From positions 16,479-80,478 of the forward strand of contig CADBIU010000027.1 in the NCBI GenBank assembly GCA_902794825.1: 64,000 nucleotides of DNA, read 5' to 3'. Below, one piece after another: positions 52,151 to 64,000 of this stretch. The position numbers and the translations under genes were made by a program. The notes beneath the pieces are model-generated. The model was given only the letters and a program-made list of their open reading frames with translations, had not been told where the DNA came from and ran no database searches. Numbering within the stretch: position 1 is the stretch's first letter; each line of letters starts with the position of its first letter. Origin of the DNA: an uncultured Lachnospiraceae bacterium (GTDB lineage: Bacteria > Bacillota > Clostridia > Lachnospirales > Lachnospiraceae).

Positions 52151-53143
52151 ATGCCCAGAAAAAGGGAAAGCTTTAAGTATGCGCTCAATAAGCGGGCATT
52201 TCGAAATACAAAAAACGACAAAAATGACAACACAGAGACCACGTATAAGCGAGGCATTGATCAATTCGTTCAGTGGGCAAAAAAGCGAGGGTGCAAAACG
52301 GCGGAGGAAGTCACGAAGGAACTTATCCAGGAATATGAAGAGTATCTGGAAGGACATCCGAAGTCCTATCAACCGTCGACAATTCACACATTCCTGACAC
52401 CGGTCTGCGTTGCCGCAGGCGTGTCGATGGACGAGATCAGAAAACCGAAAAGGACAGCGGGAAGAATCGTCCGCAGCCGAGATAACGATACTGATGAAAA
52501 TAACCGCAAGAATTCGCAGGGACTCAAAGAGGAATGCAGTCCCAAATACGCGAGGGTCGTGTCGTTTCAAAAGGCGGTTGGCATCCGTCGGGCGGAACTT
52601 GCGGATTTATTGGGGATGGACCTGATCTACACGGGCGAAGACCGGTCTGTTCTTGTCCGGCAGGGTAAAGGGGGAAAAACGCAGTTGCAGCGTATTCTTC
52701 CGCAGGATGTTGATAAAGTCCGTGAGATCTTTGCCGGCATTGAAGACATGGAAAAAGTATTCAGTAAAGAGGAGCTCAATAACAAGATCGATTTTCATGG
52801 TATGCGGGCAGAAAACGCCAGAAGATGCTACGTATACTATGCGGAAAAGATCGAAGCAGAGCCGGGATTTGCAGAAGAAATGAGGCGCAAGCTGATGAAC
52901 CGCTGGCTTGACGGACATGAAAGGTTTCGTAAAACGAATCCTGATGCCTGGCTGCGGCAGAAGAAGCTTTTCGAGCGGGAAATTGACGACCGCCCCTATA
53001 GGCTTCGCGGAGACAATCTGACCAAGGCGCTGGCATCCGGATCGCCGAAGGAATATAACCGCCTGGCGCTGATGTGCGTGTCTGTGATGCATCTGGCGCA
53101 CTGGAGGCTTGATGTGACCGTGACGAATTACATTGTGAAGTAG
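52151..53143 (+). CDS. tyrosine recombinase-like protein (second)
   Basis: A 330-residue protein with an integrase SAM-like N-terminal domain (TTYKRGIDQFVQWAKKRG) and a diverged catalytic domain: GIRRAELADL (Arg), VRQGKGGKTQ (beta-hairpin Lys), DFHGMRAENARR (H-x-x-R), and HLAHWRLDVTVTNYI (His and putative nucleophile Tyr). All key residues can be aligned, so it may be active. GAGGAAG precedes the ATG. Such second recombinases are common inside Lachnospiraceae mobile elements. Confidence 0.75.
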   Translation: MPRKRESFKYALNKRAFRNTKNDKNDNTETTYKRGIDQFVQWAKKRGCKTAEEVTKELIQEYEEYLEGHPKSYQPSTIHTFLTPVCVAAGVSMDEIRKPKRTAGRIVRSRDNDTDENNRKNSQGLKEECSPKYARVVSFQKAVGIRRAELADLLGMDLIYTGEDRSVLVRQGKGGKTQLQRILPQDVDKVREIFAGIEDMEKVFSKEELNNKIDFHGMRAENARRCYVYYAEKIEAEPGFAEEMRRKLMNRWLDGHERFRKTNPDAWLRQKKLFEREIDDRPYRLRGDNLTKALASGSPKEYNRLALMCVSVMHLAHWRLDVTVTNYIVK

Positions 53144-53194: not shown

Positions 53195-53638
53195 ATGAGA
53201 TTTGATACTGATAACATCGACTTGTTGCCTTTTAGCAGTGACACACACCTGATGCACCACCTTGGCTATCTTTTTCGCACAGACAGAGCTCAGAAGTGGA
53301 CGAACAGGCATACTGACCAGAATCGTATTATTATGAATGATTCGCTTTATGCAGTCGGTTCGACTCTGGAGAGCAGAAAAGCTACGGAAAAGATGATGAG
53401 GGACCTTATCCGGGAGCTTAAGACGGACTACAAGCACCTGTATATGTGCAGGATCGAGTGTCCCGATGATAGAGTGTATTACTTCGATGATTCGCTGTTC
53501 AGAGAAGCATCGGATATCATTCGGGGGCTTGATGAAGATCTTGCTAAGCTTGACAAGAAGATTCTGTTTGCGGTTACCCATGAGGATCAGACAAGAGAAT
53601 TCCTGCATTTTCATCTTTTGATCTTTGAAGAGCGGTAG
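53195..53638 (+). CDS. hypothetical protein with an HFH motif
   Basis: A 147-residue protein in the same direction, 51 nt after the recombinase, with AGGAGG 8 nt before the ATG. The C-terminal end reads FAVTHEDQTREFLHFHLLIF, in which HFH within a hydrophobic strand resembles the HUH motif of Rep/relaxase-type proteins, but no convincing catalytic tyrosine follows. Otherwise unrecognised. A strong terminator follows. Confidence 0.55.
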   Translation: MRFDTDNIDLLPFSSDTHLMHHLGYLFRTDRAQKWTNRHTDQNRIIMNDSLYAVGSTLESRKATEKMMRDLIRELKTDYKHLYMCRIECPDDRVYYFDDSLFREASDIIRGLDEDLAKLDKKILFAVTHEDQTREFLHFHLLIFEER

Positions 53639-53691
53639 GTAATTATTTCTGTTTACGTTTTTGAATATTGATGGTTGCTGAAACGCTGCTG

Positions 53692-53741
53692 AAATCCCCT
53701 GTGATTACTACTATATGTAGTATGACAGGGGATTTTGTTTT
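53692..53741. terminator. intrinsic terminator before the BREX locus
   Basis: AAATCCCCTGT (53692-53702) and ACAGGGGATTT (53725-53735) form a perfect 11-bp stem, with an inner TACTA/TAGTA stem, followed by a T-rich tail. It isolates the BREX operon from upstream genes. Confidence 0.85.
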
Positions 53742-53817
53742 ATCCGTTTTCTCGCCCAACCTGCGTAATCGACCTTAAATATAGAAGAATTCTGTCTCAT
53801 AGGCGTCGGTATTGCTG

Positions 53818-53823
53818 TATAAT
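53818..53823 (+). promoter_or_regulatory. -10 element of the BREX operon
   Basis: A consensus TATAAT, 41 nt before brxA; the -35 region (TCTCAT at 17-nt spacing) is weak, so an activator or low basal expression is likely. Confidence 0.45.
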
Positions 53824-53863
53824 TATAGTTGCGTTTTTATATCAAAAAATAGACAGGTATTAT

Positions 53864-54472
53864 ATGAATAGTAATCAAAGAGGCTACAGTGCAGGTGCCG
53901 TCAAGCACGCATTCTGGTTTATGGAATTCCGTAAGGTGGTTACTCTCAGAGAAGAGGGAAAAGCCTGGGAAGAAATAAAGAAGACGAACGAAGAGGAGAA
54001 CCTGTTCGGTGCGCCAACCCCTGCACGGGCAAAGCAGATTTGGAATACTGTATCAGCGAGAGTAAAGGCGTTGGACGGTAGTTTCTATCCCATTTTTGCA
54101 GATAGTGATCTGGCTTCTCAGAAGCTGTTCGCGCTTGTAGCAACTATGTCTAATGACATGTTGTTCGCGGAGTTTGTGTATGAGATCATCCGCGAGAAGA
54201 TGATCATCGGAATCAACGAGTATTCACCCAGCGATATCCGCCTGTTCTTCAAGCATAAGCAGGAACAGAGTGAGAAAGCTGCTGGATGGACGGACCAGAC
54301 ATTGGAAAGACTTGGACAGAGTTATCGGAACTTCCTATATGAAGCCGGTATGACAGATAATGGCAGAGAGATCAGAAAGATCCTCAAACCGATATTGGAT
54401 CCGGAAATGGAGAGATGGCTTGAGGATCAGCATATGGATTACTGCCTCAAAGCACTGAAAGGGGTGAGATGA
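53864..54472 (+). CDS. brxA: BREX protein BrxA (DUF1819)
   Basis: A 202-residue DUF1819 protein, the small NusB-like DNA-binding component at the head of type 1 BREX loci. Family features are the opening YSAGAVKHAFWFMEFRKV, the GKAWEEIKKTNEEENLFGAP segment and PARAKQIWNTVSARVKAL. The open frame extends to 53735, but homology begins at ATG 53864. Ribosome site weak (ACAGGT). It overlaps brxB by 4 nt. Confidence 0.88.
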   Translation: MNSNQRGYSAGAVKHAFWFMEFRKVVTLREEGKAWEEIKKTNEEENLFGAPTPARAKQIWNTVSARVKALDGSFYPIFADSDLASQKLFALVATMSNDMLFAEFVYEIIREKMIIGINEYSPSDIRLFFKHKQEQSEKAAGWTDQTLERLGQSYRNFLYEAGMTDNGREIRKILKPILDPEMERWLEDQHMDYCLKALKGVR

Positions 54473-55050
54473 TGGCATCAATACAGAAAAGACTGGATGA
54501 GATGGAAGCCGCGATCAAAAAGCCTTCTTTCAGGCAGAGCAGCGGCAGGGCGAACGAAGTCAATTACTGGGTGTTCGACTATCCGCCGGAATACGAGCTG
54601 GAAGTGCGTGAGCGGGTGGAGTACCTGAAGAAAAAGAATCAGAAAGGTGTTGACGGATTTGAGCTGGTTGTTTTCGATCTGTACGACATCATCATGGACT
54701 ATCTGGAGAAAGAAGACTTCCTTGAGCAGTGCTACAGGTTCGAAAAGAGGCGCGGACTGGACAGGATCACGAAGGCAGTAAACAGTGCCATGAAGATCAA
54801 CGATGACGACAGCTATATCGTGCAGTATATCAGGGATCATACGCCGGAAAACGCCGTTGTGTTTCTGACGGGGATCGGGAAGTGCTATCCGATCCTCCGC
54901 TCGCATAAGGTGTTGAACAACCTTCATCAGGCGTTTGTGAGAGTGCCGGTGGTCATGTTCTTTCCCGGCACATATGACGAACAGGAGCTCGTCCTGTTCA
55001 ATGAGATCAAAGATGACAATTATTACAGAGCGTTCAGGCTCGTAAAGTAA
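54469..55050 (+). CDS. brxB: BREX protein BrxB (DUF1788)
   Basis: A 193-residue DUF1788 protein: YWVFDYPPEYELEVRERV, then FELVVFDLYDIIMDYLE, FLTGIGKCYPILRSHKVLN and VVMFFPGTYDEQELVLF are hallmark segments. Required for type 1 BREX in studied systems, biochemical role unclear. Coupled to brxA by TGATG overlap; a second ATG is one codon later. A hairpin separates it from brxC. Confidence 0.9.
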   Translation: MMASIQKRLDEMEAAIKKPSFRQSSGRANEVNYWVFDYPPEYELEVRERVEYLKKKNQKGVDGFELVVFDLYDIIMDYLEKEDFLEQCYRFEKRRGLDRITKAVNSAMKINDDDSYIVQYIRDHTPENAVVFLTGIGKCYPILRSHKVLNNLHQAFVRVPVVMFFPGTYDEQELVLFNEIKDDNYYRAFRLVK

Positions 55051-55052
55051 AA

Positions 55053-55079
55053 TTGAACGGGGAACTGTCCCCCGTTCAA
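55053..55079 (+). other. hairpin between brxB and brxC
   Basis: TTGAACGGGG and CCCCGTTCAA form a perfect 10-bp stem followed by six A, ending a few bases before the brxC ribosome site; it may attenuate transcription or stabilise the upstream mRNA. Confidence 0.55.
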
Positions 55080-55095
55080 AAAATGGAGGAAAACC

Positions 55096-58000
55096 ATGCA
55101 GCTCAAGGACATGTTCGTAAAGCCAATCGACCGTGATATTCAGGGCGTCATAATAGTGGGACAGGGCGAAGAGACCAACGTTGCCCAGGAGCTGGAAGAA
55201 TACGTTGTTACAAAGGAGCTGCAGAAGCATTTCGCAGATTTCTTCGCTGCCTACAAGAAGGGAATTCTCGGCACGACCCCGAAGATGGGCGTATGGATCT
55301 CCGGTTTCTTCGGCAGCGGTAAATCTCACTTCCTTAAGATCCTTTCTTACCTTCTGGAGAACCGGAAGGTCGGCGACCGCACGGCTCTGGATTATTTCAC
55401 AGAGGACAAGAAGATCACGGATCCGATGGTGCTGGCGGATATCCGGCTCGCAGCCGAGACGCCGTCCGACGTGGTCCTTTTCAATATTGATTCCAAGAGC
55501 GATACCGGCAGCAAGCAGAACAAGGACGCCATCGTCAACGTTTTCCTTCGCGTGTTCAATGAGATGCAGGGATACTGCGGCGCCCTGCCGCACCTGGCGG
55601 ATCTGGAGCAGCAGCTCACTGAAGCCGGACGGATGAAAGAGTTCGAAGAGGCTTTTGAGAACGAGTATGGCAAGTCCTGGAAGGAGAACCGTCATAAATT
55701 CGACTTCATCCAGGATACCGTTGTCGATGTTCTGACGGACATGGACTTCATGAGCGAACATGCAGCGCGCAACTGGTGCGAGAAGGCAGCGGAGCCGTAT
55801 CAGATCAGCATTGAGGATTTTGCCAAAAGAGTGAAAGCCTACATCGATTCCAAGGGCAAGAACCATCACGTGGTATTTCTCGTTGACGAGATCGGGCAGT
55901 ATATCGGCGAGGACTCCAAACTGATGCTCAACCTGCAGACGGTAACGGAAGAGCTGGGTAAGGAGTGCAAGGGCAAGGCGTGGGTCATCGTGACCAGCCA
56001 GCAGGACATCGATTCCATCACGAAAGTGAAGGGAAATGACTTCTCCAAGATCCAGGGTCGATTCGATACCAGGCTGTCTCTGTCTTCGGCGAACGTGGAT
56101 GCGGTCATTAAGAAGAGGATCCTCGACAAGACCGATACGGCAGCGCAGACGCTGCGCCTTCTGTATGAGCAGAAAGCGACGATCATCAAGAACCTGATCG
56201 TCTTTAATGACGTCGTGGAGAAGAAGCTCTATTCCGGAGCAAAGGACTTTACGGAAGTATACCCTTTTATTCCGTACCAGTTTAACCTGCTTGCCAGTGT
56301 TTTGACATCCATCCGTACGCACGGTGCTTCCGGCAAACATCTGTCGGAAGGTGAGCGTTCCATGCTGGCGCTGTTTAAAGAGTCGGCCGCAAGACTGAAA
56401 AATGAAGAGATGGGCGTCATTGTACCGTTCCATCTGTTTTATGATGCACTGGAGAATTTCCTGGACCATAGTCACAGGGGTGTGATCCTGCGCGCCTATG
56501 ACAATACGAAGATCAATCCCGAACATAAAGAGAGCGGCGTCTTTGTCGTTGACGTGCTCAAGACATTGTTCATGATCAAGTATATCTTGGAAATCGAGGC
56601 GAATGTGGACAATATCACCAGCCTCATGATCAGCAATATCGACGATGACCGCATTGAGCTGAAGGGCAGGGTGGAAGATGCCCTCAAGGTACTGCAACAG
56701 CAGATGCTGGTGCAGAAGAACGGAAGCATATATGTTTTCCTGACGGATGAGGAACAGGAGATCAACCGCGAGATCGACAGCCAGAATGTCGAGATGGCGG
56801 AGGTAATCAACAAAGTGTCCGAGATGATCTATGAGGATATCTTCAAGGACAAGTATTACCGCTACCCGGCTTTCAACGGGCGGTACGCTTTCTATTTCAA
56901 CCAAATGGTGGATGACAGGCTGTATAAGGCTAATCAGAGATATGATATCGGGCTCCGTATTTTGACACCGTGGTATGAGGGCGGGAACGATGATACGACC
57001 CTGCGCATGATGTCCGGCCAGGGCAAAGAAGTGCTCGTGGTTCTTCCGAACGACGCTGCCTTCCTAGAGGAGATCCGGGTCTATCTCAAAATAGAGAAAT
57101 TCCTGCGGTTGAACACCTCTGTACAGCTGACCAAGTATGAGACCATCAAAGAGGCGAAACGCGTGGAGATGCGCGAGCGCAGCGCTAATGCCAAGGTGTA
57201 TCTGACCGAGAACCTGAAGGACGCGGTCATCTATGTCAACGGTGATACCGTCAGGACCGGCGCCAAAGAAGTGACCGGCCGCATCAACGAGGCGATTGGA
57301 AGGCTGGTGCAGACGGTTTATCATAAGCTTTCTTATATCGAAGCAGCTTTCGGGGAAGCGGACATCCGGAAGATGTTTAAGACATCGAACCAGCTCACGC
57401 TGGACCTTGAAGGCGGACGGGAAGTGAACGTCAACGCGCTGGATGATGTGCTGGGATTCATCTCCGACAACAGCCGGATGCACATGAAGACTTCCATGAA
57501 GACCGTGAAGGACCGCTTCATGAAAGCGCCGTACGGGTTCGTCGAGGACGATGTGCACTGGCTGGTGGCGAAGCTCTTCAAGCGCGGAGACCTCGCGTTT
57601 ACAGTGAACGGGGCCACCGTCAGTTCGATCAATAAGACTGATGAGGAACTGATCAGCTTTATTACCAAAAAAGCGTTTGTCGAAAAACTGCTGATGGAGA
57701 GAAAAGTCGGACCGAATCCGAAAGACAAGAAAGCAGTCAAGGATATCATGAAAGAGGTGTTCGGAGTCGGCTCCGTATCCGATGACGACGACACCATCAT
57801 GAAAAACTTCCATCGCTATGCGCAGAGCACGTTGAATGAGATCCTGCGTCTTGAGCCGCAGTACCAGAGATATGCATATCCGGGCAAAAAAGTGCTGGAT
57901 TCGGGTAAGCGCCTGATGCAGTATGCGATCCAGATCCAGGAACCGCTGGACTTCTTCCAGAAAATGTCGAAGATGCGTGACGCCTTCTATGACTTTGCGG

Positions 58001-58743
58001 AGGATTACGAGCCGGTCAACGCCTTCTTCGGCAGTGAGCAGCAGGAGATCTTCACGCGTGCGCTCGATATGCTTGCCATCTACGATGACAGCAAGACCTA
58101 TATCGTGGACAGCGAGCTGGAGCAGATCGTCCGTGAAATGAGGGGTATCGTCACACAGGAGAGACCGTACAAGAATATCCCCAAGCTGCCTGCCCTGCGC
58201 GATAAGTTTATGAAATCATACGGCGAAGTGCTGAGCAGGGAGGAGAAGCCGGTATTGGATGCCATCGATCAGGCCAGAAAGCGCGTGATCGAGGTGCTGG
58301 ATACCAAAGAATATGCGGATAATTACAGGTCCCGTTACAGTACGCTGTTCGCCGAGATCAGAAGCGGCGCGGAGTATTGTAACAATATCTCATCTCTCCG
58401 TAGCTATGCCGATAAGGCTAACGCACTGAAGATCCGCCTTCTGAACGAGATGACCGCCCGTGATAATGAGATCGCAAAGCGGAAAGCGGAAGAAGCGAAG
58501 AAAAAAGCGGAGGAAGAAGCCAGGAAGGCACGCGAAGCTGGCAAGACTGTTTCTGTGCAGCCTGATCCGGTGGTGATCGAATTCAAGGAAAAGAAGATCA
58601 AGAACGTTCCGGTCAAGGAGCTCACGCATATGGCGACCTGGAGACTGGAGAGCAAGGAAGATGTTGAGAAAGCATTATATGTTCTCCGAGGGGAGCTCTT
58701 AGCTAAGCTGGAAGAGTATGATGTGGTGAATGTAGAGTTCTGA
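55096..58743 (+). CDS. brxC: BREX protein BrxC (P-loop ATPase)
   Basis: A 1215-residue ATPase, the size usual for BrxC. Walker A is GFFGSGKSH with Lys76, Walker B is VVFLVDEIGQY with Asp264-Glu265; the start QLKDMFVKPIDRDIQGVI is typical of the family. A charged coiled coil with Lys/Glu/Ala runs lies near residues 1125-1160. It is a central component of phage exclusion together with PglX and PglZ. AGGAGG-type site (GGAGG) 7 nt before ATG. No disruption seen. Confidence 0.93.
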   Translation: MQLKDMFVKPIDRDIQGVIIVGQGEETNVAQELEEYVVTKELQKHFADFFAAYKKGILGTTPKMGVWISGFFGSGKSHFLKILSYLLENRKVGDRTALDYFTEDKKITDPMVLADIRLAAETPSDVVLFNIDSKSDTGSKQNKDAIVNVFLRVFNEMQGYCGALPHLADLEQQLTEAGRMKEFEEAFENEYGKSWKENRHKFDFIQDTVVDVLTDMDFMSEHAARNWCEKAAEPYQISIEDFAKRVKAYIDSKGKNHHVVFLVDEIGQYIGEDSKLMLNLQTVTEELGKECKGKAWVIVTSQQDIDSITKVKGNDFSKIQGRFDTRLSLSSANVDAVIKKRILDKTDTAAQTLRLLYEQKATIIKNLIVFNDVVEKKLYSGAKDFTEVYPFIPYQFNLLASVLTSIRTHGASGKHLSEGERSMLALFKESAARLKNEEMGVIVPFHLFYDALENFLDHSHRGVILRAYDNTKINPEHKESGVFVVDVLKTLFMIKYILEIEANVDNITSLMISNIDDDRIELKGRVEDALKVLQQQMLVQKNGSIYVFLTDEEQEINREIDSQNVEMAEVINKVSEMIYEDIFKDKYYRYPAFNGRYAFYFNQMVDDRLYKANQRYDIGLRILTPWYEGGNDDTTLRMMSGQGKEVLVVLPNDAAFLEEIRVYLKIEKFLRLNTSVQLTKYETIKEAKRVEMRERSANAKVYLTENLKDAVIYVNGDTVRTGAKEVTGRINEAIGRLVQTVYHKLSYIEAAFGEADIRKMFKTSNQLTLDLEGGREVNVNALDDVLGFISDNSRMHMKTSMKTVKDRFMKAPYGFVEDDVHWLVAKLFKRGDLAFTVNGATVSSINKTDEELISFITKKAFVEKLLMERKVGPNPKDKKAVKDIMKEVFGVGSVSDDDDTIMKNFHRYAQSTLNEILRLEPQYQRYAYPGKKVLDSGKRLMQYAIQIQEPLDFFQKMSKMRDAFYDFAEDYEPVNAFFGSEQQEIFTRALDMLAIYDDSKTYIVDSELEQIVREMRGIVTQERPYKNIPKLPALRDKFMKSYGEVLSREEKPVLDAIDQARKRVIEVLDTKEYADNYRSRYSTLFAEIRSGAEYCNNISSLRSYADKANALKIRLLNEMTARDNEIAKRKAEEAKKKAEEEARKAREAGKTVSVQPDPVVIEFKEKKIKNVPVKELTHMATWRLESKEDVEKALYVLRGELLAKLEEYDVVNVEF

Positions 58744-58815
58744 TACAGCAATCTTCTGTTCGTATACGGTAAGTGTTGTGTTTTATGAAAGCCTAAAGAA
58801 AGGTGTATTGAGAAT

Positions 58816-61404
58816 ATGAAGTTTTATTTCGCCGGCGGTGCCATGGAAGTAGGCGGGAGTTGTATACATCTGCAGATTGCCGGAAAAGGGATACTGATGG
58901 ACTGCGGGATCCGGCAGAGCGGGAACAGGGAGGCGTTTCCGGATTTTCGCGGTATTCAGGAGAGAGGCGGTGTTGACGCTATTTTGATCAGTCATGCGCA
59001 TATGGATCACACAGGATCGCTGCCGGTCATCAGCAAGGCTTATCCGGCGGCGCGGATCTATATGACGAAAATGGCGATGGAACAGACGCGGGTGCTTCTG
59101 TTTGACAGCCTGAAGCTGATGGACCGTCGCGAGGAGGAGATCCCGCAGTATTCCCGGGAAGATGTGCTCTCCATGCTGGAAAGGATCACGCCGATCGCCT
59201 ACCAGCAGGAAATGCCGATTCCGGAGCTGAACATGAAGGTGACGGCCTATCCTGCGGGGCATATCGCGGGGGCGGCCTGCCTGTATCTGCAGACGGAAGA
59301 GGGGAGCATCTTTTATTCCGGGGATGTGTCCGGGTTCGCACAGCAGACGATCGAGGGGATCGGGATCCCGAAACTCCGCCCGGACGCGGCAATCCTCGAG
59401 TCCACCTACGGAAACCGCCTGCACGCATCGAGGAGTCTCGAAGAGGCGAGACTTGTTGAAACCGTGGCGGACTGCGCACGGAAGGGAATGAAAGTCCTGA
59501 TCCCTTCCTTCGCGCTCGGCAGGTCACAGGAAGTCCTTCTGATCCTTCGTAAAGCGATGGGCGATGGCAAAATACCGCACATCCCCGTTTATGTGGATGG
59601 CATGGTGCGCGACATGAATCGCGTCTATGCCGGTAATCCGACTTTTCTGCGGAGAAACCTCGCGAAGAGGATCATGAGGGGAGAGGACCCGTTTTATACG
59701 GAGGATATCCGCGCCGTGCAGGTGACGGAAGACAGGGACACACTGGTGAATGCGCCGGGAGCTGCTGTTTTCGTCTCCAGTTCGGGAATGCTGTCCGGAG
59801 GACCCAGTGTACTCTATGCGCAGAAGCTCCTCCCGCGGGAGGATGCCTGCATAATCCTGACAGGATATCAGGACGAGGAGTCGCCGGGCAGAAAACTGAT
59901 GGACCTGCTGGACGAGAATGACCATTCGACGGACCCCGAACGGGAACGACGGATCACGCTCGATAAGGTAACCGTCCCTGTAAAGGCGCATACGGTCATG
60001 GTGGGCCTCTCTGCGCATGCGGACCAGTCGGAACTGTGCGGGATCATTGAGAGGATATCCGCCCGCAGAGTGATCCTGGTGCACGGCGACGAAGATGCGG
60101 TCCGCGCGCTCGGGGAACAGCTTTCTTCCGATGTCCGCAGGCAGATCTATCAGCCGTCCGTCGGGGAAGAAGTCGTCATTTCCATCGGATCGAAGCGGGC
60201 GCAGCTTATGAACGGCCTTTCGACACATATGAACTGTACGACTTTTGACGGGGATGAGGACGCGCTCCGGCTGTGGGACTTTGTACGCATAAGTTACAGC
60301 GGGAGAGCGTTTACTGTGCAGGAGCTGGCTTACCTGTGGTACGGGAATACTGAATGTATGACGGAAGACCGGCTGCAGGCGTTTCAGGAGAAGCTGCTGG
60401 GAAGCCTCTTTTTTGACAGGCATGCGCGGCGGCTGTACCTTTTGGTGCCGTGCACGGAAGAAGAGATCCACGAGAAGCGCAGGACGAAGGAACCGAGCGC
60501 CCAGGATGTGGAAGCCGTCGTTCGTGAACTTGCGCAGAGAGGAGCGGCGGACAGCGGGGAGGAGATCGAGATCAAAAAGCTCGGTTTCTATCCTGAAGAG
60601 AAGCGTGTCGTCCTCACGGTGGATTTCCCGGATGTATTGCCGCCGGAAAGGATCTTAGAGATGAAGGAAGCGCTGTGCGCGCAGACCGGATGGGAGCTCT
60701 CCGTGAAGCCGACGATGAATTTCGCGAGCGCGGGGATGCTGCTTGAGAGTCTGTTCCCGCAGAGGATATTGAAGTCGTCGTACTTTACCGAAAAGAAGTA
60801 TTATCAGGTGACGCTCAGTGAAATACAAGCGGACGATGCGCAGTCGTGCGAGCGATTTTGTCAAAAGACAGGATGGCGCCTTGTGATCACCAATCTTGGA
60901 ACGGGAAGCACCGTTTACGGGCATCCCGGAGAAGAAGCTGCATCTAACGAGAGCGGAACGCGTGAAGAAGGCGAACGGATGTGGTTGTACCCGCAGCCCG
61001 GTCAGGAAAAGGCGGAACAGAACCTCGCCTTCAGCCTGATCGACATGGCATTTGCGGAAAGTGAGATCAAACCGTACAAGAAGGGACGCAAAAATGACAT
61101 CGAAGGACTGTACCTGGAATTGTCCTTCCTCTCTCCCGCGCTGGGGATCCGATGCTCCGCGATCCTGGAAGAAGTCGCCAGGCAGATCGGCTGGCGGCTT
61201 CACATCAGCGAGAGCGTTAACCAGAATCAGCTGCAGATGATCGCGGCGCAGATGTGCGCGCAATACGGCGTCACGCAGAAAAAGGCGGCGTCTTACCTGC
61301 CGGCGCAGCGCAGTATCCGGATCCAGAACCTGCCGGACACGCCGGTGCCTGCCAAGATGAAAGAGGACTTTTTGGAACGGACGGGAGTGCCGATCGTAGA
61401 GTAG
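58816..61404 (+). CDS. MBL-fold beta-CASP nuclease-like protein embedded in BREX
   Basis: An 862-residue protein. Residues 1-450 are a complete metallo-beta-lactamase/beta-CASP domain: His60-x-His62-x-Asp64-His65 in SHAHMDHTG, YPAGHIAGA, SGDVSG, ESTYGNRLH, VLIPSFALGRSQEVL, and VGLSAHADQ near the end (beta-CASP motif B). Such proteins are usually RNases of the CPSF73/RNase J-related group. The C-terminal 410 residues contain no domain I recognise. It lies 72 nt after brxC and 27 nt before pglX, in the same direction, so is part of the operon. Not one of the standard six BREX genes; its role in defence is inference. Confidence 0.85.
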   Translation: MKFYFAGGAMEVGGSCIHLQIAGKGILMDCGIRQSGNREAFPDFRGIQERGGVDAILISHAHMDHTGSLPVISKAYPAARIYMTKMAMEQTRVLLFDSLKLMDRREEEIPQYSREDVLSMLERITPIAYQQEMPIPELNMKVTAYPAGHIAGAACLYLQTEEGSIFYSGDVSGFAQQTIEGIGIPKLRPDAAILESTYGNRLHASRSLEEARLVETVADCARKGMKVLIPSFALGRSQEVLLILRKAMGDGKIPHIPVYVDGMVRDMNRVYAGNPTFLRRNLAKRIMRGEDPFYTEDIRAVQVTEDRDTLVNAPGAAVFVSSSGMLSGGPSVLYAQKLLPREDACIILTGYQDEESPGRKLMDLLDENDHSTDPERERRITLDKVTVPVKAHTVMVGLSAHADQSELCGIIERISARRVILVHGDEDAVRALGEQLSSDVRRQIYQPSVGEEVVISIGSKRAQLMNGLSTHMNCTTFDGDEDALRLWDFVRISYSGRAFTVQELAYLWYGNTECMTEDRLQAFQEKLLGSLFFDRHARRLYLLVPCTEEEIHEKRRTKEPSAQDVEAVVRELAQRGAADSGEEIEIKKLGFYPEEKRVVLTVDFPDVLPPERILEMKEALCAQTGWELSVKPTMNFASAGMLLESLFPQRILKSSYFTEKKYYQVTLSEIQADDAQSCERFCQKTGWRLVITNLGTGSTVYGHPGEEAASNESGTREEGERMWLYPQPGQEKAEQNLAFSLIDMAFAESEIKPYKKGRKNDIEGLYLELSFLSPALGIRCSAILEEVARQIGWRLHISESVNQNQLQMIAAQMCAQYGVTQKKAASYLPAQRSIRIQNLPDTPVPAKMKEDFLERTGVPIVE

Positions 61405-61431
61405 TAAGTAATACAGAGGAAATATATAACA

Positions 61432-62247
61432 ATGAACAAAACCGCCATCAAGAGCTTCGCCATCTGGGCAAGAAACAAACTGATCGCCGACATCAGTTAC
61501 CGCGCAGGCCTGATGGGCATTACGCCGAACGGGATTCACCCCGCGCTTCCGCAGTCAACCGGCCAGACGAAGTTTTATGACATCGGAACAGCGGAGCCCT
61601 ATGCGATCAGCGGCGAAGCCATCCGCCAGCGCGAGCACCTGGCTGAACTGATCCGAAGAAAAGAGAAGGATTTCGATTACAAAACTGCCTATAAGTATAT
61701 CATTGAGGAGGTTGCCTACACTTGGTTCAACCGCCTGATCGCTGTGCGCTTTATGGAGGTCAACGACTACTTGCCGAGCCACATCCGCGTCCTGTCCTCC
61801 GACCAGGGCAAAATAGAGCCGGATCTGGTGACGACCCCCTTCGACGCGGATCTCGATTTTTCAAGGGATGAGCAGCAGGCCATCATCGACCTCAAGAACG
61901 AGAACAAGCTCGATGAGGTTTTTCGCTTATTGTTCATCAAGCAGAGTAATGCGTTGAATGAGATCCTCCCTGCGCTTTTCGAAAAGACGAACGACTATAC
62001 GGAGCTTCTGCTCAATCTGTCCGTCGTCGATCAGGACGGCGTGGTGTATCATCTGGTGCATGATATCCCGGAAGAGGATTTTGATATCGAACGCGGCGGC
62101 CAGGTAGAGATCATCGGGTGGCTGTATCAGTATTACAATACAGAACCTAAAGATGAAACATTTGCTCTTCTCAAGAAAAATGTAAAGATTACAAAAGAAA
62201 GAATACCTTCAGCAACGCAATTGTTCACACCGGACTGGATCGTTTGA
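61432..62247 (+). pseudogene. pglX: BREX methyltransferase PglX, N-terminal part ending at an internal TGA
   Basis: The first 271 residues of PglX (BrxX), the N6-adenine methyltransferase that marks host DNA: NKTAIKSFAIWARNKLIADI, RLIAVRFMEVNDYLP, TELLLNLSVVDQDG. The frame stops at TGA (62245-62247) in SATQLFTPDWIV-stop-YMVENSLGRLW, exactly where homologues read WIVRYMVENSLGRLW or WIVKYM. The frame is open again in phase directly after it, so a single C-to-T change of CGA (Arg) explains it. AGAGGAAA ribosome site upstream. Confidence 0.88.
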
Positions 62248-62250
62248 TAT

Positions 62251-63249
62251 ATGGTCGAGAACAGTTTGGGAAGGCTGTGGATTGAGCATCTGATGGTTTG
62301 CGGTGATTCCAGAACAGAAGCGGAAATAGCTGCGGGTTTCGGATGGAACTACTATCTACCGGAAGCAGAACAGGAACCAGAAGTAGTAGAGCAACTGAGG
62401 AAGATCAGAGAAGAACGCAAGGACCTGACGCCAGAGGCAATCCGGTGTATCGATCCTTGTATGGGCAGCGGGCATATCTGTGTCTATCTGTTTTCAGTTC
62501 TGATGCAGATTTATGAGAGTGCCGGATACGGGCAGAGGGAAGCTGCGAAAAGCATTCTTGAGAATAATCTGTATGGTCTTGATATCGACGACCGCGCATT
62601 TCAGATGGCGTATTTTGCCGTCATGATGAAGGCGAGAGAGTACAACAGGCGGATTCTGAACGGGGAGAATCGGCCTAATTTGTATTCGATTCAGGAGAGT
62701 AATGACATTGATCGGGAGCAGCTGAAGTTCTACGGGAAGGGAATGGAGAAGGCTGAGAGAGAAGCGGCGCTGCAGGATATGACAGAGCTGCTTGATACCT
62801 TTGTGGATGCGAAAGAGTATGGTTCAATCCTGACTGTGAAGATGTATGATTGGGAGCGATTGGAAAGACTTGCAAATGACTACGAAAGTGAGGGGCAGAT
62901 CAGTTTCGAATCGGTAGGGCTGGAGGAAACGAGTGCGGCGCTGACTCAAATCATTGAACAGGGGAGGTGCTTGGCACAGAAATATGAGGTTGCTGCCACA
63001 AATCCACCTTATATGAGTGGGGCTAATATGAGCCCAAGATTACAGAGGTATGTTCAAAGTGGTTATCCAAACAGCAAGATGGATTTATACTCTGTTTTTA
63101 TTGATAGACTACAAGAATTTGGCAAGAAGGATTCTGTCATAGGATTAATGACTTCATATACATGGATGTTTCTTACCTCGTTTGAAAAATTCAGGATGGA
63201 TTTATTAAGCTCTAATCCTGAATCCGTGAAGCTCAGCTTCAAAATATAA
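62251..63249 (+). pseudogene. pglX: PglX, middle part after the stop, cut by an IS
   Basis: Continues PglX in the same frame: MVENSLGRLWIEHL, methyltransferase motif I DPCMGSGHICVYLF, and the catalytic NPPY at 63001-63012 (AATNPPYMSG). Homology ends near residue 320 of this piece (TSFEKFRMDLL), about 63210; then about 12 unrelated codons and a stop are read. Full PglX is about 1200 residues, so the target-recognition half is missing here. A transposase on the opposite strand begins at once, showing that an IS disrupts the gene. Confidence 0.85.
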
Positions 63250-64000
63250 GGATCGGCTCACAAAAGGCATTTTTTATTGATGCCTACCGTGATGATCCCT
63301 GTTTACGGGTTACCTGTAGTTGAATTGCTGGTTGCCAAAGGCTCCCTATGGATATAAGAGCGCACTTAATAAAGGCTGTACTGATGTTTTATGCTGGCGG
63401 ATTTCATTTTACGATAAAACCAGCTGCTGATGCAGATCCATAAATACCGGAATCCAGACATTACTCTTTCCAAGTGAAAGAATGAGTCTCCTGGCATGTT
63501 CTTTGACATGACCGGCGATCAGGACCAGGTTGCTGATCACTGTGCGGATCCTGCGGCGCTTTACCTTTCGTTTCGTTTTGGGAGCACTGCCGCTCTTAAG
63601 CGACTTCTGGCCGATAATGCGCAGGACATTATAAGCGAGTACAGTGAGCTCCAGAACAAGCTCGTTAGTATCAAACTTCCCGGAAGGAAACCGCTCGACA
63701 TCCATATCCGTCTTGATCTCGCTGTGATACTGCTCGCTTTCACCATGCTCATGGTAAAGCCGGATCACATCGTCATCAGACTGGCCAAGGTTTGTCCACC
63801 AGGTATTTACCTCGATATCGGCAGGAAACAGATATTGGCCATGCTTATCAATGGTGCGCTCGATGATCTCGTAGCCTATACGAAGGCAGATGGTCTTCTG
63901 TTCACCGTTGACTGTCGTATAGGGAACATCCTTCCAGCTGCTTCCAATGTATACGGTTTTCCCCTCACGGGGATGACGGATATCCTTACAGCAGTCCTGT
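63210..64000. mobile_element. IS1380-family insertion sequence (partial, right end outside window)
   Basis: The left boundary is put at about 63210, where PglX homology stops; no inverted repeat or target duplication could be fixed because the other end lies outside. From 63250 to 63408 the sequence has no ORF, then the transposase reads on the minus strand. Insertion separates pglX from any downstream pglZ and brxL. Confidence 0.7.
63409..64000 (-). CDS. IS1380 family transposase (C-terminal part)
   Basis: A reading frame open to the right edge on the minus strand, about 197 residues. ADIEVNTWWTNLGQSDDDVI, then the signature YHEHGESEQYHSEIKTDMD, RFPSGKFDTNELVLELTVLA and a basic tail (KTKRKVKRRRIRTVI) identify the DDE transposase of the IS1380 family. 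The catalytic Glu is in the HGESEQYHSE block. The N-terminal half is beyond the window. Looks intact here. Confidence 0.88.
   Translation of the reverse strand, partial: QDCCKDIRHPREGKTVYIGSSWKDVPYTTVNGEQKTICLRIGYEIIERTIDKHGQYLFPADIEVNTWWTNLGQSDDDVIRLYHEHGESEQYHSEIKTDMDVERFPSGKFDTNELVLELTVLAYNVLRIIGQKSLKSGSAPKTKRKVKRRRIRTVISNLVLIAGHVKEHARRLILSLGKSNVWIPVFMDLHQQLVLS

Follow-up and report, generated by a model that had tools for sequence, protein, structure and literature searches.

The bacteriophage exclusion (BREX) island of pEFER carries a non-core gene between brxC and pglX of a type 1 locus: its product, BrxU, is a GmrSD-related DNA restriction enzyme with demonstrated phage protection, directed against modified phage DNA (PMC8565348). 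The window analysed here, a stretch of 64,000 nucleotides from an uncultured Lachnospiraceae bacterium (genome G000) that ends together with its contig (C27), contains a type 1 BREX locus which resembles that island, since a non-core gene is also inserted between brxC and pglX. However, whereas BrxU is a DNA restriction enzyme, the inserted gene (58816-61404, + strand), known here from its sequence, encodes an 862-residue protein of the metallo-beta-lactamase (MBL)/beta-CASP nuclease type.

The catalytic core of this protein is the same as that of TTHA0252 and of CPSF73/INTS11, although the matches to these end at about residue 450 and the tail that follows has no solved relative by sequence. 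The archaeal aCPSF1/FttA proteins (KH-CPSF) also combine MBL and beta-CASP domains; they provide the closest NCBIfam model and PDB profile and appear among the fold matches of the tail. Their two KH domains are N-terminal (PMC3095777, PMC11616081), whereas the window protein, which scores under the aCPSF1 cut-off, has a predicted winged-helix-like domain and four KH-like repeats, all C-terminal. The apparent absence of the GXXG motif is a further likeness, as one of the two archaeal domains, KHa of MTH1203, also lacks it and was recognised only from structure (PMC3095777). Finally, Cas14 of type VII CRISPR represents a beta-CASP core recruited to a defence system (PMC10910872), and in the window such a core likewise lies within a defence system locus; unlike Cas14, the protein leaves the C-terminal part of the Cas14 model unmatched, misses its cut-off and has no cas gene among nine neighbours tested.

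Distribution and origin of the inserted gene

Within the genomes sampled, this locus reflects the capture, in one lineage only, of a nuclease gene that otherwise stands alone, at a BREX position already known to hold cargo. The fuller explanation, namely that a stand-alone RNA-processing nuclease was captured once as BREX cargo and is not a core part of the system, is given a probability of roughly two in three.

The long form of the gene, with its tail, has a patchy distribution across the window's phylum, and most copies are stand-alone chromosomal genes. Matches to it occur in 10 of the 62 genus genomes (8 without G518 and G567, whose matches, with E about 5e-4 and 25% identity over 99 residues, lie in other proteins), in 4 of 392 genomes of the order sample, in 5 of the 397 in the family (Lachnospiraceae) sample and in 31 of the 398 that make up the phylum sample, with the window's own genome counted in every tally. 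A scan of an 84,980-species collection with two peptide patterns returned 19 loci and is not exhaustive, because it returned none from two known carrier genera of the phylum sample. In tblastn searches the core was matched by 259 of 72,556 plasmid records and 11 of 50,697 phage records, none with a place covering 80% of the protein. The short form is widespread, with matches at 1e-20 in 120 of 150 family genomes, and G000 itself contains one long-form gene, one short paralogue (538 residues, 29% identical, no tail) and two weak local matches. Among the variants of the long form, the gene is split into two open reading frames (ORFs) in G1070 (L149) and into three in G024 (L064), and longer members of 907 to 1093 aa occur in distant genomes of the phylum (L150, L152, L153).

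Forty-five distinct loci besides the window were compared, derived from the family, order and genus searches (12), the two-pattern scan (12), the family sample (1) and the other phylum carriers (20 of 30); several stretches are just 3.4 to 8 kb long and reach contig ends. The match in G711 (57 residues in a 90-aa frame) is within the 5 of the family tally and outside these 45, its stretch being without an MBL gene. No BREX gene lies beside 43 of the 45 relatives in the stretches covered. The first-pass annotation had asked whether close relatives repeatedly lie between brxC and pglX: they do so in two loci, one of near-identical DNA (L084) and one of a sister genome in which brxC has been deleted (L085). 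It had named, as the result that would speak against its proposal, homologues that are mostly housekeeping genes outside BREX loci, with the arrangement in one genome, and this is nearly what was found, except that the sister genome and a second assembly share the arrangement. Neighbours outside BREX include a LarA-family racemase, pdxS, phosphoglycerate mutase and DAHP synthase, and they are conserved within each of the two genera best represented in the phylum sample (4 of 4 and 7 of 7 carriers); in the second of these genera a neighbour was labelled as a transporter by eye, the tested neighbour having no NCBIfam match at 1e-10. An everyday role of the family in RNA processing or RNA decay is probable.

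Moreover, the gene and BREX rarely meet. BrxC is present in 9 and the long form in 8 of the 62 genus genomes, and in the family sample (n=397) the figures are 37 (BrxC at E 1e-100) and 5; in both, the overlap is the window's genome only, G574, which has lost brxC, being counted as without BrxC. The second type 1 BREX locus of G000 (L076, contig C41, 11642-19734), whose BrxA, BrxB and BrxC are 86%, 97% and 91% identical to those of the window, has pglX 22 bp after brxC and no MBL gene between them. Like the window's locus, it ends in pglX, close to the end of a contig.

In a tree of 35 proteins, the window protein and L085 form one terminal pair (100/100), nested in a six-row group (100/100) whose other four rows are copies from the same genus located outside BREX. 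The G+C content of the MBL gene is 57.2%, against 46.2% for brxA, 49.0% for brxB and 51.5% for brxC. Synonymous divergence between the window and L085 is 0.19 for the MBL gene, 1.1 for brxA and 0.34 for brxB, and these unequal values indicate that the locus is a mosaic.

Both other assemblies with the arrangement are metagenome-derived records: L084 is a contig of a separate assembly, and L085 belongs to the same contig as L051, in genome G574. L084 is 99.1% identical to the window over 3.45 kb; its pglX is open across the position of the window's stop, and its MBL gene has a divergent patch with a frameshift. In L085 (1-995) a deletion has left roughly the last 30 bases of brxC, to which brxB is now fused; the MBL gene, with an intact reading frame, and the start of pglX come next. 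This 3' remnant of brxC before the MBL gene shows that the ancestor of L085 had the gene order of the window.

The brxC-pglX interval as a cargo slot

The region downstream of brxC was covered for each of the 38 further BrxC places in the family sample, of which 35 are readable (two stop at a contig end and one is without pglX). The gap is empty in 25 of the readable loci and holds one or two genes in the other 10; in L172, with an insert, and L187, with none, this was judged by eye as the automatic brxC end failed. No beta-CASP match was found in any of the 38 stretches, and hence in 0 of 35 readable gaps. The protein is therefore not among the components present in BREX loci generally; its gene occupies the position of an embedded accessory, between brxC and pglX and in the same direction. 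A beta-CASP nuclease would be an addition to the kinds of cargo of this slot. The nuclease classes named in section 35 (part 1 of 2) of PMC12839542 are HNH, HKD, PD-(D/E)XK, TOPRIM/OLD, HEPN, PIN and Schlafen, and the terms lactamase, CASP and MBL occur 0 times in its main text. Furthermore, among the papers listed in literature searches, none was found that joins beta-CASP and BREX.

The catalytic core

The assignment of the MBL/beta-CASP fold made in the first-pass annotation stood up, since the Pfam models Beta-Casp (88 bits), RMMBL (48 bits) and Lactamase_B_6 all score above their cut-offs and PDB profiles also match. Residues 1-450 (58816-60165, + strand) form the catalytic core according to profile, alignment and model matches: the PDB profiles of archaeal KH-CPSF (2e-90), INTS11, CPSF73, Cas14 and TTHA0252 match this part, and in the AlphaFold2 model of the protein (predicted local distance difference test, pLDDT, 82.3; predicted template modelling score, pTM, 0.59) the core matches the folds of the same five. 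With its HxHxDH motif and its beta-CASP and RMMBL domains, the core is by sequence a nuclease of the CPSF73/FttA/TTHA0252 type. Residues H60, H62, D64, H65, H149, D170, E195, H401 and H423 do not vary among the 17 proteins aligned. In beta-CASP proteins the motif C histidine points to an RNA rather than a DNA substrate; H423, which we take to be this residue, suggests RNA over DNA cleavage. The aCPSF1/FttA equivalog TIGR03675 is matched with 316 bits, under its cut-off of 580.2, over model positions 179-628, leaving its N-terminal KH part unmatched.

Between the window and L085 the core is under strong purifying selection (ratio of nonsynonymous to synonymous divergence, dN/dS, 0.025), and the tail is under weaker selection (0.24). 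Relatives of the core, with 23-31% identity and without the tail, are present in the 11 phage records (H21-H31), which are unannotated and come from human faecal samples, and PHROG 36352 also matches the core.

The C-terminal half

The first-pass annotation had described a 410-residue tail as unrecognised, and at the sequence level this holds. Against PDB profiles the best match of the tail is ATP synthase b (E 0.096), judged to be due to chance; Pfam searches with 17 tails gave at best PolC N-terminal I, at 0.069, in 2 of 17; a pooled profile of the repeats reached E 0.09 against the PDB; among 48 repeat units searched against Pfam, PolC N-terminal I appeared in one (E 0.0059); and PHROGs did not match the tail. 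Structural models, on the other hand, allow it to be described. The AlphaFold2 model of the tail (pLDDT 85.6, pTM 0.39) contains a winged-helix-like domain and four alpha-beta-beta-alpha-beta units, and, given this pTM, the single units are more reliable than their mutual packing. The winged-helix-like domain, of helix-helix-helix-strand-strand order and named by eye from the models, covers residues 478-548 (60247-60459, + strand like the repeats). The repeats, delimited by models and hhalign, are R1 (residues 558-634, 60487-60717), R2 (634-704, 60715-60927), R3 (732-801, 61009-61218), which is the most diverged, and R4 (801-862, 61216-61401). They are related to each other: hhalign probabilities are 97.3% for R1-R2, 95.4% for R2-R4, 95.2% for R1-R4, 83.2% for R1-R3, 58.1% for R2-R3 and 3.6% for R3-R4.

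Foldseek returned 12 matches for the tail at E <=0.001, five of them NusA or NusA-containing, five archaeal KH-CPSF/FttA and two ribosome chains, the NusA and KH-CPSF entries having E values of 1e-4 to 1e-3. Fold comparison of the models thus suggests that the repeats are KH-like, and the tail probably binds RNA. Literature listings yielded no account of a bacterial beta-CASP protein whose KH-like repeats are C-terminal. The lasting interest of the locus would lie in this family, patchily distributed bacterial CPSF-type nucleases with a repeat-built, KH-like C-terminal half.

Competing explanations

In the explanation that we favour, the product would be a zinc-dependent beta-CASP ribonuclease of the CPSF73/INTS11/FttA/TTHA0252 type, whose C-terminal half, the winged-helix-like domain and the four KH-like repeats, is probably RNA-binding. 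The repeat array would hold single-stranded RNA and pass it to a di-zinc centre, located between the MBL and beta-CASP lobes, that would cut it. A chromosomal copy from the same genus would have been captured, in a single event, by the brxC-pglX slot of a type 1 BREX system, and its transcription there is probably shared with the BREX genes. Several points weigh against this explanation. The KH assignment comes from fold comparison, and KH as the common feature of the tail and its Foldseek matches is something we infer, because the template modelling scores are low (0.14-0.16 of the query, with root-mean-square deviations of 9-20) and the aligned part is not displayed. Neither the tail nor the repeats gave a significant KH-family sequence match (PDB profiles, Pfam, pooled repeat profile), CinA_KH appearing at E 0.057 in 1 of 48 units; by eye, GXXG is not seen at the expected helix turn. 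The long form is rare in the window's family (5 of 397), unlike a housekeeping gene; genes of defence type are frequent in the slot; and type I restriction or Wadjet genes are found near 5 of the 43 non-BREX relatives.

The last two points favour a possible, though not a probable, alternative already raised in the first-pass annotation: a nested second defence gene, that is, an RNA-cutting effector kept in the BREX slot for its own protection as with BrxU, which uses the same slot (PMC8565348). That the gene is a nested second one is borne out, and its defence role is possible. Inserts were tested at 7 of the 10 loci (L172, L173 and L179 lying outside the test), and five match known or candidate defence families, namely HEC-01A/B (L159), PDC-M02B (L175), bSEFIR (L184, L186) and an OLD-like ATPase (L188); those of L163 and L181 match no such family. 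In the genus, G549 and G524 also have brxC-pglX inserts, with PDC-M14A- and PDC-M16A-like matches. Among the relatives, three (L061, which equals L093; L091; and L096) have a divergently oriented type I methyltransferase gene no more than about 180 bp away, the G024 copy is preceded by a type I restriction gene, and JetA and JetB homologues are found about 5 kb from L057; the frame kept intact in L085 despite the loss of brxC fits a protective role as well. However, for 38 of the 45 relatives the stretch covered contains no BREX gene and no obvious defence neighbour (by eye rather than by systematic scan), and the three methyltransferase cases belong to one four-row clade; in its fourth row, L090, the 408 bp of upstream sequence available do not match that gene. 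Moreover, the G024 copy is broken yet stands beside restriction genes, no PADLOC model matches the protein, and the conserved neighbours in two genera of the phylum sample are not defence-like.

A new BREX variant, also suggested in the first-pass annotation, would make the beta-CASP protein a dedicated component working with BrxC and PglX. Its position within the operon, the tight spacing and the lack of promoter- or terminator-like sites in the gaps (a weak test) agree with this, but the empty tally of family gaps, the coincidence of BrxC and the long form in the window's genome alone, the second BREX locus of G000 without the gene and the confinement of the BREX copies to one terminal pair make it very improbable; it was rejected on distribution and tree. 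An assembly or binning artefact is highly unlikely too: although L084 and L085 are metagenome-derived and G000 (2.74 Mb) is in 127 contigs, 84.6% complete and with contig ends close by, the junctions recur in separate assemblies, that between the MBL gene and pglX in three (window, L084, L085) and that between the 3' end of brxC and the MBL gene in two (window, L085). Almost inconceivable is a type VII CRISPR-like nuclease acting with guide complexes. The NCBIfam Cas14 model NF045584 does match residues 1-450 with 251 bits, and Cas14 chains are among the PDB matches; nevertheless, the score is far under the curated cut-off of 800, the match covers model positions 1-435 of 612, and the short, ordinary paralogue in G000 reaches a better score (426), while a search limited to nine neighbouring proteins, and not extending to CRISPR arrays or to the rest of the genome, found no cas gene. 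Cas14 was rejected on the missed cut-off and the better score of the paralogue. Lastly, a more speculative extension of the capture explanation, which we consider improbable, would see in the family a bacterial counterpart of FttA/CPSF, with the KH-like array placed C-terminally, that cleaves mRNA or nascent transcripts and may also bring transcription to an end, and that one lineage recruited into BREX as an RNA-cutting arm for when DNA-based defence fails.

Structure and state of the BREX locus

The + strand order brxA, brxB, brxC, MBL/beta-CASP ORF, pglX was established with Pfam, NCBIfam and PADLOC profiles, which agree with the first-pass annotation on the type 1 order and on the tightly spaced, co-directional gene within it. 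brxA (53864-54472) matches PF08849 (1.9e-57, 194 bits) and PADLOC BrxA (6.9e-74), brxB (54469-55050) matches PF08747 (3.4e-43, 147 bits) and PADLOC BrxB (6.8e-73), and brxC (55096-58743) matches NF033441 with 1326 bits, against a cut-off of 400. The MBL ORF is intact and is separated from brxC by 72 bp and from pglX by 27 bp; a weak scan found no promoter- or terminator-like site in either gap, and over 53600-62000 it gave 9 promoter-like (6.1 expected, standard deviation 2.3) and 9 terminator-like sites (6.8 expected, standard deviation 2.6). An inverted repeat with a 12-pair stem is located between brxB and brxC, at 55053-55079.

As assembled, the window's BREX copy is damaged, a point absent from the first-pass annotation. 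Although the type 1 order is complete from brxA to pglX, the latter is broken: its first fragment (61432-62247; PADLOC PglX 3.4e-100, model positions 1-254) ends at an in-frame stop after 271 codons, and the second (62251-63249; 3e-106, positions 257-559) is cut before an insertion sequence element. The C-terminal part of an IS1380-family transposase (63409-64000, - strand) interrupts pglX and reaches the contig end; NF033539 matches it at 2.1e-32 over 63409-63768, with 112 bits against a cut-off of 180, as a partial gene. The annotation was also silent on whether PglZ and BrxL occur in this genome. Pfam PF08665 found no PglZ in G000 or G574, and detected it in just 2 of 14 control genomes, so the PglZ protein of the congener G549 was used as query: it has no match in G000 (84.6% complete, with the contig ending in pglX) or G574, and BrxL of G549 gave only a weak 23% match in G000. 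As a positive control, both queries find themselves in G549. The same PglZ query, in a search without positive control, had no match in the genomes of L084 and L085.

Elsewhere, pglX consists of two consecutive ORFs in L159 and L170, as in the window, one BREX locus (L160) has two PglX-like genes in tandem, and in G514 (L078, 4655-6681) PADLOC identified a Septu pair, PtuA and PtuB, between pglX and a PglZ-like gene. Finally, a tyrosine-recombinase-like gene (52151-53143 in the window; weak SAM-like and XerC matches) is found upstream of both BREX loci of G000, the copy preceding the C41 locus being 81% identical, and may be a marker of a mobile island.

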